Source of the DNA: Parvularcula sp.
GTDB lineage: Bacteria > Pseudomonadota > Alphaproteobacteria > Caulobacterales > Parvularculaceae
Length of the DNA stretch: 38,004 nt
Direction: 5' to 3'
NCBI GenBank assembly: GCA_002704915.1
Contig: PAIP01000072.1
Span: 1 to 38,004, forward strand
Made by a program: the position numbers and the translations under genes. Positions 9,992 through 15,222 of the stretch are shown piece after piece (positions within the stretch are counted from its first letter, which is position 1; each line of letters begins with the position of its first letter). Below the pieces are notes generated by a model. The model saw nothing but the letters and a program-made list of their open reading frames with translations, made no database searches and was not told the origin of the DNA.

Positions 9992-11287
9992 ATGACTTCA
10001 TCGGCGCCGCCGCCTGGCGCAACTGTCACAACGCCGACACAGCGCCGGATCGCCATTGCGCTCCTGCTCGTGGGCGCCGTCTGCGCCGGCATGGGCCAGA
10101 CCATCGTCTTTTCGGTGTTGCCGCCGCTGGCGCGGGAAATCGGCCTTTCGAATTTTCAGACCGGCTTCATCTTCACCCTGTCCGCCTGCGCCTGGGTTTT
10201 TCTGGGGCCGGTCTGGGGCCGGATGAGCGACCGGCATGGCAGGAAGCCGTTCATCATTGCGGGCATGATCGGCTATGCCGGCTCCATGACGCTGTTCGGC
10301 GGCTCAATTTATCTCGGCCTCGCCGGCGTTCTGTCCGGCCTCCCGCTTTATCTCCTGATCGTCGCAACGCGTAGCATTTACGGCCTTGTGGGCTCCGCCG
10401 GGCCGCCGGCGGCGCAGGCCTATATCGCCGACCGCACGTCGAAAAAGGATCGCACGGCGGGGATCGCCGGGTTTTCCGCCGCCTTCGGTTTCGGCGCCAT
10501 GCTGGGGCCGGGCTTCGGCGCCGCCGCTTCTCTTCTCGGGCGCGTCACGCCGTTTTTCGCCGCCGCCGCGCTCGGCTTTTTGATGATGTTCGCGGTTCTC
10601 GCCTTTCTCCCGGAACGCACGGGCCCGACGGAGCGCAAGACGCAAAAGAAGGTTCGCCTTCTCGACAGCCGGATCACGCCGTTTCTAGGCTTCGCCCTCG
10701 CCTTCTCCATCATCAACGCCATCCCGATCCAGACCATCGCGTTCTATTTCATCGACCGGCTCGGCTATTCGACGGCTCAGGCGCCGGGCTATGTGAGCAT
10801 CGGGCTGACCGCCGGCGCGCTCGCCTCCCTTTTCGCACAGCTTGTCATCGTTCAGCGCCTGCGCCTGCCGCCCGCGCGGCTGATGCGGATCGCGCCTGCG
10901 CTGATGCTCGGCGGGCACATGCTGATCTTGTTCTCCGACACGCTGTGGCCCACGGTGATCGGGATGATGGCGAGCGGCCTTGGTTCCGGAATGGCGATCC
11001 CGGCGGCGACGGCCGCGACCTCGCTTGCGGTCGAGCCCGACGAACAGGGCGGGGCCATCGGCCTTGCGGGCGCGGCGACGGCGTCGGGCTTCATCGTCTC
11101 GCCGCTGATTGCTTTTACACTGTACGCAGAAGCGCCGCAGGCGCCGTTCATCCTGTCTTCGGCGCTGGCGCTCGCTCTTCTCGGCTATGCATGGGTCAGC
11201 CGCAAGGTGGGCGGCGCCATTCCGCCCGATATGGACGAGGCGCCAGAAGAAGCCGTGAGCGAGCCCGCCGCGGCGCCCTATCAGTAA
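9992..11287 (+). CDS. MFS transporter, drug-efflux-like
   Basis: A 431-residue major facilitator superfamily protein with about 12 hydrophobic segments. The loop 2-3 motif A appears as GRMSDRHGRKP near residue 80, and a Gly/Pro-rich segment in TM5 (FGFGAMLGPGFGA) resembles motif C of drug:H+ antiporters. The C-terminus is a charged tail. Proton-driven export in the inner membrane is likely; the substrate is unknown. GGAG lies about 11 nt before the ATG. The gene is convergent with the Xre regulator gene, whose stop is 3 nt away. Confidence 0.85.
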   Translation: MTSSAPPPGATVTTPTQRRIAIALLLVGAVCAGMGQTIVFSVLPPLAREIGLSNFQTGFIFTLSACAWVFLGPVWGRMSDRHGRKPFIIAGMIGYAGSMTLFGGSIYLGLAGVLSGLPLYLLIVATRSIYGLVGSAGPPAAQAYIADRTSKKDRTAGIAGFSAAFGFGAMLGPGFGAAASLLGRVTPFFAAAALGFLMMFAVLAFLPERTGPTERKTQKKVRLLDSRITPFLGFALAFSIINAIPIQTIAFYFIDRLGYSTAQAPGYVSIGLTAGALASLFAQLVIVQRLRLPPARLMRIAPALMLGGHMLILFSDTLWPTVIGMMASGLGSGMAIPAATAATSLAVEPDEQGGAIGLAGAATASGFIVSPLIAFTLYAEAPQAPFILSSALALALLGYAWVSRKVGGAIPPDMDEAPEEAVSEPAAAPYQ

Positions 11288-11514: not shown

Positions 11515-12032
11515 TAAACGGTGAGGTCCTGTTCTTCTTTCATGCGCGCGCCTTCACGGAACACTTCCGCAAGAACGAAAACGGTGACGATGGCGAGCCA
11601 GGATAGAAAAGTCATGTTGAGCTCGACATCGGCGTCGAAGATCAACGCCAGAAAGCCGAAAGCGAATTTCGCCCCCTCGCCCATCAGGAGCGCATAGCCG
11701 ATGCCGCGGAAGCGGTCGGCGTTTTCCTTCACGAAGGGCGAACCGAAGCGTAGAGCCTTCAGAATTTCGAGCAGCCTGTTCACCACGAACAACATGACCG
11801 CAAAAGTCACAAAGGCGCTCGACACCTTGATGAAATCTTCCGCGCCTACGAGACCGTCGCCGTCGAAAACCACTGCGTCGCCGCCAGCGAAGATGTCTGC
11901 GATGACTGGCGCGAAAGGAAGAATGATCAGCGCCAGTGTAACGGCGCCGAGCATGATCCATAAAATCACGCGCGTTATGTGAAGACCGATTGCGAGAATC
12001 GATGAAAGCGATCCCTTGCCTATGGCGCGCAT
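11514..12032 (-). CDS. DUF2975 membrane protein (copy 1)
   Basis: A 172-residue DUF2975 protein with four hydrophobic segments (about 16-42, 70-90, 110-130 and 140-160) and a charged C-terminal tail. An extracytoplasmic loop, about 48-65, carries an Asp/Gly-rich stretch (VVFDGDGLVGAED). The start at 12032 has GGAG upstream. It is the third gene of a four-gene minus-strand operon: a 44-aa peptide, a 51-aa peptide, this gene, and an Xre regulator overlapping its stop. The operon layout suggests the membrane protein senses a signal and influences the Xre protein, but this is inferred from context. Confidence 0.85.
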   Translation of the reverse strand: MRAIGKGSLSSILAIGLHITRVILWIMLGAVTLALIILPFAPVIADIFAGGDAVVFDGDGLVGAEDFIKVSSAFVTFAVMLFVVNRLLEILKALRFGSPFVKENADRFRGIGYALLMGEGAKFAFGFLALIFDADVELNMTFLSWLAIVTVFVLAEVFREGARMKEEQDLTV

Positions 12033-12083
12033 GGTGAAATCTCCGTCCTGGCGGGCGCCTGAAAAGGCCCTCTCGACTCGCCC

Positions 12084-12239
12084 TTAAAACAGGGCGATCA
12101 GGCAGAAGGCCTTTTCGCAGCTTTGCGGGATGTCGTCAGCCCCGCCTTCCGCCGGGGAGGCGACAGCGAGCGAGTAAAGGCTCGCCGCCGCGAAGGCGGC
12201 GAAAACCACCGCCGCCATTCTCTGGACAAGTCTGGACAT
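12084..12239 (-). CDS. 51-aa secreted peptide with two Cys, in DUF2975 operon
   Basis: A short ORF whose ATG overlaps the stop of the preceding 44-aa ORF as TAATG. Residues 1-27 form a clear Sec signal (basic SRLVQR, Ala/Val-rich core, AVA cleavage region). The mature part is about 24 residues, acidic then hydrophobic, with Cys41 and Cys46 four residues apart (CEKAFC) and the C-terminus LIALF. The Cys pair could form a disulfide. It is followed after 51 nt by the DUF2975 gene. No family is known to me; a secreted signal or an accessory subunit of DUF2975 is possible. Confidence 0.6.
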   Translation of the reverse strand: MSRLVQRMAAVVFAAFAAASLYSLAVASPAEGGADDIPQSCEKAFCLIALF

Positions 12240-12373
12240 TACGCCACTCCCGCGAAGGAACCGATCGCCGAGACATAACCGGCAGCGATGACGGTGACGG
12301 TGAGGAAGACAGCCAGTCCATTGACAAACTGGCCAAATTTATCGACACTGAAGTCTGAGTTTGCAAAGCGCAT
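12239..12373 (-). CDS. 44-aa single-span membrane peptide, first gene of DUF2975 operon
   Basis: A short ORF starting at the ATG at 12373 behind a strong AAAGGAG Shine-Dalgarno with near-ideal spacing. The N-terminal 19 residues are polar (RFANSDFSVDKFGQF), followed by one hydrophobic segment LAVFLTVTVIAAGYVSAIG at about 20-38 and a short tail. The stop overlaps the start of the 51-aa peptide gene. The ribosome binding site, coupling and membrane segment together support a real gene. Function unknown; it may be a small membrane partner of DUF2975. Confidence 0.62.
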   Translation of the reverse strand: MRFANSDFSVDKFGQFVNGLAVFLTVTVIAAGYVSAIGSFAGVA

Positions 12374-12421
12374 GGGTTTCTCCTTTTCTTTCCTGTGTTA
12401 GCGGCTCGTTTTGATCTTCTT

Positions 12422-12451
12422 GAGCGGCGGTTTTCCGCCGCTCTTTTTTTT
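12422..12451 (+). terminator. Strong Rho-independent terminator on plus strand, no obvious parent gene
   Basis: GAGCGGCGG (12422-12430) pairs perfectly with CCGCCGCTC (12435-12443) around a TTTT loop and is followed by eight T residues. It works only on the plus strand. The nearest plus gene upstream is the MFS transporter, ending 1.1 kb away beyond the minus-strand peptide operon. It may therefore end an antisense or small RNA running across that operon. Confidence 0.75.
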
Positions 12452-12640
12452 GTTTCACCGCTTTTTCGGCCGGTTTTCCCTTTTTGCGGGCGGGGCCGTC
12501 CTTTCCCCGGGGTTTCTCCGTTTTGGGCTCTTTTTCCGCCGGTATTCCGGTCTTTTCGGCCCTTTTTCTTTTCGCCCCGGGTCTGGTATTCCTCCGGCTC
12601 CGGGGCCCCGTGTTCGCGGCGTTTTCCGCCGTCTTGTTGA

Positions 12641-12711
12641 TTATCGATATACACTTATCGAAAAACAATACAAGAGGTTTTTGCCGAAAAACGATAATTT
12701 TTTTTCGATAA
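12641..12711. promoter_or_regulatory. Symmetric TTATCGA repeat array, candidate Xre operator
   Basis: TTATCGA at 12641 and 12655 form a TTATCGA-N7-TTATCGA direct repeat. At 12692-12711 the same arrangement occurs inverted (read on minus: TTATCGA-N7-TTATCG). The two blocks are separated by 30 nt that could hold core promoters. The right block ends at the rdgB Shine-Dalgarno AAGGGA. The same heptamer, as an 8-bp palindrome, lies before the second DUF2975 gene. Operator function and Xre binding are inferred. Confidence 0.5.
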
Positions 12712-12722
12712 GGGATAAAAAC

Positions 12723-13331
12723 ATGGGCGAAACTATGCGGAAATTAGGGCCTGGGCGGCTTGTGATCGCCTCTCACAATGATGGAAAAGTAAAAGAAATC
12801 AATGACTTGCTTTCCCCGCTCGGTATCGAGGCGGTCTCCGCAAAAAAATTAGGCCTCCCCGACCCCGAAGAGACCGGAACGACCTTCGCGGAGAACGCCG
12901 AATTGAAGGCGCTGGCCGCCGCCAAGGCGTCCGGCCTGCCCGCCCTCGCCGATGATTCAGGGCTTTCCGTGACCGCGCTCGCCGGCGCGCCGGGCATTTT
13001 TTCGGCCCGCTGGGCGGGCGAGCCCCGGGATTTCGGCATGGCCATGAAAAAGGTCGAGACGGCGGTCTTCGACACCGGGACCGAGGATTTCTCCGCCCGC
13101 TTCGTCTGCGCGCTCTCGCTCGCCTGGCCCGACGGGCATACGGAAACCTTTGAAGGCGAGTTGAAGGGCGTTCTTATTTTTCCGGGACGCGGCGACAAGG
13201 GATTCGGCTATGATCCGATCTTCGTTCCCGACGGCTATCATAAGACATTTGCGGAAATGGACCCGGAAGAAAAACACGCCATCTCTCACCGTGCGGATGC
13301 CTTCCGTAAACTGATGAAAGCGCATTTTTGA
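12723..13331 (+). CDS. rdgB: RdgB/HAM1 family XTP/dITP pyrophosphatase
   Basis: A 202-residue house-cleaning enzyme hydrolysing dITP, XTP and ITP to monophosphates, preventing mutagenic incorporation. It shows the family motifs [10 protein letters not shown] near the N-terminus, [21 protein letters not shown] and [11 protein letters not shown]. The ATG at 12723 is preceded by AAGGGA with suitable spacing; the longer frame upstream is the intergenic region. The stop TGA overlaps the ATG of the beta-lactamase gene (ATG begins on the last base of the stop), so translation is coupled. The repeat array ends at its ribosome binding site. Confidence 0.95.
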
Positions 13332-14104
13332 TGTTGAGAATTATTGCCGCTCTTTTTGCCGCGCTGTTCATTGTCTCTTGCGCATCGACACCAGAAACGC
13401 AGCAAGCAGAAAACAGACTGCCCGAACCGTCACTTGAAAAAATTGCAGACAATGTCTGGATTCATAAAAGCTATCGCGTCGTCGAGCCCTGGGGCCCTGT
13501 TCTATCTCAGGGCATAGTGGTCAGAACCGAAGGCGGTGTCGCGCTCGTTGATACGGCGTGGACGGACGAAGAAACGGAAACGCTTCTCAATCTCATCGCC
13601 ACGGAAACAGGAGAACTGCCTATACAAGCCATCGTCACGCACGCCCATGCCGACAAGATGGGCGGCATGGATGCGCTTCATGCCCGTGACATTGCAACCA
13701 TCGCGCATCAATTTTCCAATGAAGACGCACCCGCGCGTTCTCTATCGCCAGCGCGAACATCCATAGAAATGCGAGAGAAAGATAATATTATTGCGGCCGC
13801 ACAAGACTCCTCAATTGTGTACGAGCTATTTTATCCCGGCCCTGGCCACACACGCGACAATATCGTTGTCTATTACGCCCCGGCGAAGGTCCTCTTCGGC
13901 GGCTGCCTAATTCGCCCCGGCGATAGCGACAATCTAGGCAACACCGCCGATGGCGATGTGGGTTACTGGGCTGAGGCCGTGAGGAATGTCGCGGAAGCCT
14001 TTCCTGACGCCGAAATCGTGATCCCGAGCCATGGCCCCATGGGCGGACGGGAGCTTCTCGACCACACGATTGCACTGGCGGAACAGGCGGCCGCCAATCA
14101 GTGA
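13331..14104 (+). CDS. Subclass B1 metallo-beta-lactamase, NDM-like lipoprotein
   Basis: A 257-residue lipoprotein (FIVSC, Cys17) of the metallo-beta-lactamase fold with every B1 zinc ligand. Zn1 is bound by His104 and His106 (HAHADK) and His173 (GPGHTRDN); Zn2 by Asp108, Cys192 (GGCLI) and His234 (PSHG). Several stretches match NDM enzymes as I recall them: VDTAWTD, DKMGGMDALH, YPGPGH, FGGCLI and LGN followed by an Asp-rich segment. NDM is also a lipoprotein. Arg195 replaces the usual Lys after GGCLI, which could affect substrate binding. It overlaps rdgB upstream and hemW downstream. Carbapenem or other beta-lactam hydrolysis in the periplasm is predicted, not shown. Confidence 0.87.
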   Translation: MLRIIAALFAALFIVSCASTPETQQAENRLPEPSLEKIADNVWIHKSYRVVEPWGPVLSQGIVVRTEGGVALVDTAWTDEETETLLNLIATETGELPIQAIVTHAHADKMGGMDALHARDIATIAHQFSNEDAPARSLSPARTSIEMREKDNIIAAAQDSSIVYELFYPGPGHTRDNIVVYYAPAKVLFGGCLIRPGDSDNLGNTADGDVGYWAEAVRNVAEAFPDAEIVIPSHGPMGGRELLDHTIALAEQAAANQ

Positions 14105-15222
14105 CGAAGCTTTTCGGCGTTTATGTCCACTGGCCGTACTGCGCGCGCATCTGCCCCTATTGCGATTTCAACGTCTATAAAAACCGCGCTGTCGATGCGG
14201 ACATATGGGTTGCGGCGCTGACGCGCGATCTCGAAAAATACGCAACGCGGACGCGAGGCCGCAAACTGACCAGCCTTTATTTCGGCGGCGGCACGCCATC
14301 GCTCGCGCCGCTTCCCGTCATCGAAAGCGTCATCGAAACTTGCGAGCGCCTCTGGGGTTTCGCACCGAGCGCCGAGATCACACTGGAAGCCAATCCGACG
14401 GATGCGGAGCAATCGCGCTTCGAAGCGTTTGCAAAGGCGGGCGTCAACCGCCTGTCGCTCGGCGTGCAGAGCTTGCGCGACGATGCGCTGAAATTTCTCG
14501 GCCGCGACCACGACGCCGTAGCAGCCAAACGCGCCATCGCGGCGGCCCAAGCGGCGTTCCCGCGCGTCACCTTCGACTTGATCTACGGACGCCCCGGTCA
14601 AACGCTTCAAGACTGGCGCGCCGAACTATCGGAAGCGCTGGAACTAGGACCGAAACATCTCTCCCTTTACCAGCTCACGATCGAACCGGGCACGGCTTTT
14701 GGCGTCGCCGTGGACAAGGGCCGCTGGGCGCCGCCCGAAGACGATGTCACGGCGGACATGTATGATATCGCGCAGGAAATGACGGCGGTGGCCGGTCTTC
14801 CCGCCTATGAGATTTCGAACCACGCCGCCCCCGGCGAGGAAAGCCGTCACAATCTCGTCTACTGGACTTACGGCGATTATGCAGGCGTCGGGCCCGGCGC
14901 CCATGGACGCCTCACTGAGGATGGCGCGCGCATCGCCACCGAAACGCCGCTGGCGCCTCCGGACTATCTCTCGGCGGCCCCACACGAAGAAACCACGCTC
15001 ACACCCGCAGAAGCGGCCATGGAGCGGCTTTCCATGGGGCTGCGGCTGACAGCAGGCACGCCTTTCACCGAGGACGACGCCTTCTTTGCCGAGGCCGGCG
15101 CTCTGGAGCGCCTTGACCGGCTGATCGGCGACAAGCTTCTGCAATGGGACGGCCAAACCCTCGTCGCGACCGCCAACGGACGGCGCATTCTAAACCGCGT
15201 CCTTTACGAACTCTTCGCGTAA
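14101..15222 (+). CDS. hemW: HemW, radical SAM haem chaperone
   Basis: A 373-residue protein of the HemN-like radical SAM family, now assigned as the haem chaperone HemW. The 4Fe-4S motif C-x3-C-x2-C is at Cys14, Cys18 and Cys21 (YCARICPYCDF), followed by the glycine-rich FGGGTPSLAP and VNRLSLGVQS motifs. The N-terminal extension of true HemN coproporphyrinogen dehydrogenase is absent. The start is GTG at 14101, overlapping the beta-lactamase stop by 4 nt (GTGA). HemW commonly sits beside rdgB in alphaproteobacteria, so the intervening beta-lactamase gene is unusual. Confidence 0.93.
   Translation: MTKLFGVYVHWPYCARICPYCDFNVYKNRAVDADIWVAALTRDLEKYATRTRGRKLTSLYFGGGTPSLAPLPVIESVIETCERLWGFAPSAEITLEANPTDAEQSRFEAFAKAGVNRLSLGVQSLRDDALKFLGRDHDAVAAKRAIAAAQAAFPRVTFDLIYGRPGQTLQDWRAELSEALELGPKHLSLYQLTIEPGTAFGVAVDKGRWAPPEDDVTADMYDIAQEMTAVAGLPAYEISNHAAPGEESRHNLVYWTYGDYAGVGPGAHGRLTEDGARIATETPLAPPDYLSAAPHEETTLTPAEAAMERLSMGLRLTAGTPFTEDDAFFAEAGALERLDRLIGDKLLQWDGQTLVATANGRRILNRVLYELFA

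Follow-up and report, generated by a model that had tools for sequence, protein, structure and literature searches.

The chromosomal subclass B1 metallo-beta-lactamase ElBla2 of Erythrobacter litoralis HTCC 2594 (PDB 6v72, 6v73, and 6v3u) is described in PMC5770381 as an enzyme of a marine alphaproteobacterium whose gene lies neither in nor near a mobile element, with flanking genes that are conserved in relatives without ElBla2. According to the same paper, E. coli BL21 with ElBla2 showed raised MICs for penicillins and carbapenems and for several cephalosporins, while the MICs of cefepime and aztreonam did not rise. A second chain with solved structures, the metallo-beta-lactamase of Hirschia baltica (PDB 6v54, 6v5m, and 6v61), is carried as HBA in PMC10740994. 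In a B1 HMM screen reported in PMC5637372, 18 of 21 picked genes hydrolysed imipenem, whereas the other three predicted B1 enzymes were inactive. No report of the gene described below, or of the activity of its clade, was found in the open-licence PMC literature.

We analysed a window of 38,004 nucleotides, positions 1 to 38,004 of contig PAIP01000072.1 (Parvularcula sp., assembly GCA_002704915.1; forward strand), in which a B1 metallo-beta-lactamase gene, here called bla, lies between rdgB and hemW. The features, with positions of the window, are as follows.

12735..13331, + strand: rdgB (non-canonical purine NTP pyrophosphatase), upstream neighbour; PF01725; TIGR00042, 172.1 against a cut-off of 145.35
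13331..14104, + strand: B1 metallo-beta-lactamase gene (bla); 257 aa, ATG start, TGA stop
13331..13381, + strand: signal peptide with lipobox-like I-V-S-C and presumed lipid-anchor Cys17, read by eye from the translation
13640..13654, + strand: zinc ligands His104, His106, and Asp108 (H-x-H-x-D), intact in 13/13 same-site proteins
13847..13849, + strand: zinc ligand His173, in 13/13 same-site proteins
13904..13915, + strand: zinc ligand Cys192, and Arg195 at the substrate-carboxylate position, where NDM-1 and ElBla2 have Lys and FIM-1 and 6v54 have Arg
14030..14032, + strand: zinc ligand His234, in 13/13 same-site proteins
14101..15222, + strand: hemW (radical SAM haem chaperone), downstream neighbour; TIGR00539, 273.5 against a cut-off of 205.4

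A sequence-only reading of this DNA had placed the gene between two core genes with an overlap at either end. Both neighbours scored above their TIGRFAM cut-offs, the open reading frame, start, stop, and residue numbers given in that reading were all correct, and the overlaps were found as claimed: the rdgB stop and the bla ATG share 1 nt (TGATG at 13329-13333), the bla TGA and the hemW GTG start share 4 nt (GTGA at 14101-14104), and bla is the sole gene in the rdgB-hemW interval of this contig. A gene 52-68% identical to bla was present at the same site in 12 further genomes, indicating that bla is neither a chance reading frame nor a local assembly error. At all 13 of these loci, the bla stop and the closest in-frame start of hemW overlap by 4-11 nt; at 11 of them, the rdgB stop and an in-frame start of bla overlap by 1-8 nt. 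Alternative starts are possible at some of the loci. The exceptions to the rdgB-bla overlap are G014, with a 1-nt gap, and G039, where some 40 nt or more intervene. Such overlaps would fit co-transcription and coupled translation of rdgB, bla, and hemW. An Rfam scan of positions 12000-14500 gave seven matches, none of them at gathering score. Elsewhere in the window (9992-11287), an MFS transporter showed weak similarity to Tet(A)-type tetracycline exporters; at 82 bits against a cut-off of 475 it is not to be filed as Tet.

Judged by its sequence, the bla product is a subclass B1 metallo-beta-lactamase, as the sequence-only reading had proposed. It scored 232.3 bits with the generic subclass B1 model of NCBIfam (NF033088, curated cut-off 200) and 56 bits with PF00753 (cut-off 22.7). 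The second-best match to the B1 model in its genome (98.95% complete, 3.29% contamination) reached only 59.8 bits, so bla is the sole gene above the B1 cut-off there. Among the best 25 of the 54 named NCBIfam families that matched, FIM (NF000437; 186.3 against 590 bits), NDM (NF000259; 180.6 against 580 bits), and AFM (165.5 against 590 bits) all fell far short of their cut-offs. The top phmmer match among solved structures was the E. litoralis enzyme 6v72 (197.4 bits), followed by the H. baltica enzyme (190), an NDM-1-based chimera (181), FIM-1 (180), and variants of NDM (179 at most). Under the family criterion of 70% identity for B1 enzymes stated in PMC5637372, bla would count as a separate family when judged against the NCBIfam cut-offs and seven references (NDM-1, AFM-2, VIM-1, IMP-1, ElBla2, H. 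baltica, and FIM-1). The 13 same-site proteins apparently represent an unnamed B1 family of a known kind.

All six B1 ligands named in the sequence-only reading (His104, His106, Asp108, His173, Cys192, and His234) were present and were kept in all 13 same-site proteins. Other positions were compared across 50 aligned B1-like proteins, 47 of them from loci and 3 from PDB alignments; this set takes in all 41 matches of the order-wide search. Position 195 holds Arg in 40 rows, FIM-1 and H. baltica included; seven rows have Lys there, and the other three have His, Leu, or Val. The difference from the Lys of NDM that had been pointed out is real, but Arg at this position is ordinary among B1 proteins. 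Gln60 is a small signature of the clade, found in 12 of the 13 same-site proteins and in none of the 37 other rows, 32 of which have Asn. Asn204 aligns with the Asn of the NDM-1 LGN stretch and is kept in 12 of the 13 (Ser in G007). A Cys in the signal region occurs in nine of the 13 and is missing from G025, G022, G003, and G039; of the earlier statement that this protein and NDM are both lipoproteins, the lipobox-like signal of this copy, as read by eye, stands, whereas lipid anchoring is a weak trait to share. A predicted structure built from six sequences had a mean pLDDT of 67.3, with residues 105-107, 173-175, and 194-208 below 50. Its top Foldseek matches were the E. litoralis, H. baltica, and NDM-1 enzymes, and the overall fold was like that of B1 structures; since the model came from six sequences and was weak at the active site, including the ligand loops, it adds little beyond the fold. 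Three B1-like proteins elsewhere in the order, L107 (G274), L110 (G350), and L113 (G218), the last also below the B1 cut-off, lack two or more zinc ligands and are for that reason probably inactive or changed in function.

The core identity of the bla product was 41.9% to NDM-1, 43.3% to the H. baltica enzyme, 43.8% to FIM-1, and 44.7% to ElBla2, the highest value among the seven references. In a maximum-likelihood tree of the 50 proteins, the bla product fell among B1 enzymes whose activity or structure is known. A separate clade (support 97/92) united the 13 same-site proteins; the tree contains several long branches, and the point at which this clade attaches was not resolved in it. Like bla, ElBla2 is a chromosomal B1 gene of a marine alphaproteobacterium that encodes all six ligands, has flanks conserved in non-carriers, and is free of any mobile element. 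It differs in being 45% identical, in having Lys at the position of Arg195, and in its closeness to NDM-1 on another branch of the tree. The bla gene repeats the ElBla2 pattern in a different lineage. FIM-1 (PDB 6v3q) shares the Arg at 195 with bla, as well as the stretches FGGCLIRP, LGNTA, and IPSHGPM, but belongs to another branch, where its own place was not resolved. The H. baltica enzyme likewise has Arg at this position, and it groups separately, with other f2 genomes (98/90); G147, a genome of the same order, encodes a stretch identical to it.

Genomes that passed the B1 cut-off numbered 39 of 398 in the order and 3 of 385 drawn from the class, the own genome being counted in both. Comparison of the rdgB-hemW interval among relatives, a check that had been proposed along with the original reading, showed bla at the site in the 12 further genomes and a junction without bla in many others. 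The genus itself (28 genomes with the own one) has bla in 12, always between rdgB and hemW, and this patchy presence indicates that bla is dispensable. Another 12 junctions in the genus were readable: nine were empty, and one each held an AAA ATPase gene, a NUDIX gene, and a transposase-like ORF in which an rve integrase-core domain was recognised. The remaining four genomes (G001, G005, G011, and G026) were left unscored, with rdgB and hemW missing or on different contigs, and gave no B1 match at 1e-35. Of 100 genomes searched for rdgB and for hemW, two, G005 and G011, were missed by both searches. In genus g6, the eight junctions examined contained a B1 gene once and an AAA ATPase gene three times and were empty four times, and the junction of the one g5 genome was empty. 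The labels AAA, NUDIX, and rve each rest on a Pfam scan of a single example; the three remaining AAA cases were assigned by eye. Two more genomes of the family have a B1-like gene off the site: in G045 (L029) it shares its contig with rdgB, some 410 kb away, and encodes a product 51% identical to FIM-1, and in G043 (L114) it is on another contig, cut by the contig end, and below the cut-off at 193.9 bits. A single clade of these two with the 13 same-site proteins was weakly disfavoured (p-AU 0.043).

We consider it very likely that bla is an intrinsic chromosomal B1 lactamase, exported, with two zinc ions, and co-expressed with rdgB and hemW, which would shield its host against the beta-lactams of competitors and belongs to a family often lost or exchanged. 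The host would be an alphaproteobacterium congeneric with Marinicaulis flavus (a genus that current NCBI taxonomy places under Hyphococcus, Parvularculaceae). The product would be exported, probably as a lipoprotein, and would hold its zinc ions in a His/His/His and an Asp/Cys/His site, where a zinc-activated water would open the beta-lactam ring. Arg195 may take the part played by Lys211 in NDM-1, a residue with a role at the substrate position according to a passage of PMC5770381. Transcription would start from a promoter upstream of rdgB, with translation of bla coupled to that of rdgB and hemW, and the periplasmic shield would, under such an arrangement, probably be present at a low constant level. 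Its 12 homologues at the same junction would belong to a family repeatedly lost or swapped between relatives. The pairwise dN/dS values were 0.10-0.32 for pairs with dS under 2.5, most dS values being above 1 and near saturation, suggesting purifying selection on bla, which is probably a functional intrinsic beta-lactamase.

The location between housekeeping genes would also suit a B1-fold hydrolase with a non-antibiotic natural substrate, such as a lactone or a peptidoglycan fragment, and with little or no beta-lactamase activity. No beta-lactamase regulator was found among ten nearby proteins scanned (four of which matched no family), and the loss of ligands in the G218, G274, and G350 proteins shows that the B1 fold can drift. 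We nevertheless regard this explanation as improbable, as the bla product retains the six ligands, Arg or Lys at the substrate position, and also Asn204 in this copy, and its neighbours in the tree include known beta-lactamases. Still harder to sustain is the idea, in line with the NDM-like label of the sequence-only reading, that bla is a close chromosomal relative of NDM or stands for its source lineage. The stretches VDTAWTD, DKMGGMDALH, YPGPGH, and FGGCLI named in that reading are indeed present, and are the same in the NDM-1-based chimera chain 6c6i; NDM-1 further resembles bla in its B1 ligands, its lipobox-like signal, and 42% identity, and NDM chains rank among the best PDB matches. 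However, bla is about equally distant (42-45%) from NDM-1, FIM-1, H. baltica, and ElBla2, and NDM-1, a plasmid-borne enzyme of clinical genera with Lys at the substrate position, pairs instead with AFM-2 and ElBla2 (support 100/99), ElBla2 being 57.2% identical to NDM-1 over the core. Forcing the 13 same-site proteins together with NDM and AFM cost 60 log-likelihood units and was rejected (p-AU 0.00028), and all 2710 of the 2710 matched plasmid records were under 60% identity. NDM kinship was thus rejected by identity, by family cut-offs, and by the constrained tree. The value that had been attached to the bla lineage for tracing the immediate origin of NDM has to be corrected accordingly: it has little bearing on that question, for which ElBla2-type genes remain the closer lead.

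Arrival of bla in this one genome as a recent mobile resistance cassette is the other alternative to an intrinsic gene, and we find it very hard to reconcile with the data. The GC content of the own bla (13331-14104) is 6 points below the rdgB/hemW mean, the largest deficit among the 13 copies, and the trees of B1 proteins and flanks conflict among the 13 carriers. Each data set rejects the topology of the other (LG+G4), with p-AU 0.0029 for the flank topology under the B1 data and p-AU 4.8e-40 for the B1 topology under the flank data. The clearest conflict concerns G003, whose bla joins those of G022 and G025 before that of the own genome, whereas the flanks pair the own genome with G022 and G025. 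Against a fresh cassette stand the orthologues at the same site in 12 other genomes, a bla GC content that follows that of the flanks across the 13 genomes (r 0.92), and the lack of any additional gene between rdgB and hemW in the own genome; bla matched no phage record, and a viral-contig scan with a reach of close relatives only found nothing. Mapped onto an rdgB and hemW tree of 33 genomes, the B1 state requires no fewer than seven changes (13 of 500 shuffles were as low), at least four of which are forced by well-supported branches. The description of bla as inserted holds on one reading of this pattern, but a single gain with many later losses, or an exchange of the gene among relatives, would explain it equally well, the tree and GC data not separating loss from repeated gain. 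Taken together, the results favour a gene long resident at a single site, lost in places and to some extent exchanged among relatives, over fresh insertion. Exchange could possibly proceed by recombination in the flanks. A clade of the 12 genus copies without G039 was not rejected (p-AU 0.23), and transfer of the G039 gene between genera is therefore not demonstrated.

More speculatively, the rdgB-hemW junction might be a recurrent slot for one-gene cargo (a B1 lactamase with start and stop fused to its neighbours, an AAA ATPase, or a NUDIX hydrolase), swapped between species by flank recombination and with no mobile element; we offer this as a tentative suggestion that is rather more apt to fail than to hold. 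If it were true, a resistance gene could spread among chromosomes without a mobile vehicle. We have not seen descriptions of a single core-gene junction that serves bla as well as other genes, nor of the overlaps at both ends. The bla gene is ordinary in kind and mildly interesting in its place: a carbapenemase-type gene that lives between core genes, apparently under selection and not on a mobile element, in an apparently unnamed family whose 13 members, all chromosomal and all at one site, enlarge the environmental reservoir of such genes. The AAA ATPase found at the junction in L059, L066, L067, and L069 is about 394-401 aa long, and its carriers are scattered on the flank tree; the one example analysed matched AAA_16 and, weakly, mad8 in PADLOC (E 0.0002).

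Just upstream of rdgB, the non-coding positions 12630-12735 of the window contain repeated TATCG/CGATA boxes together with CGAAAAAC-type repeats. This stretch was strikingly conserved in all 30 aligned rows (the own genome and 29 relatives, with G008, G010, and G018 left out of the alignment), with or without bla. Of 62 genomes of the family, 25 contained its exact core pattern, each a single time, and these 25 fall in two of nine genera; the element is perhaps an operon regulatory region or a replication-related site.
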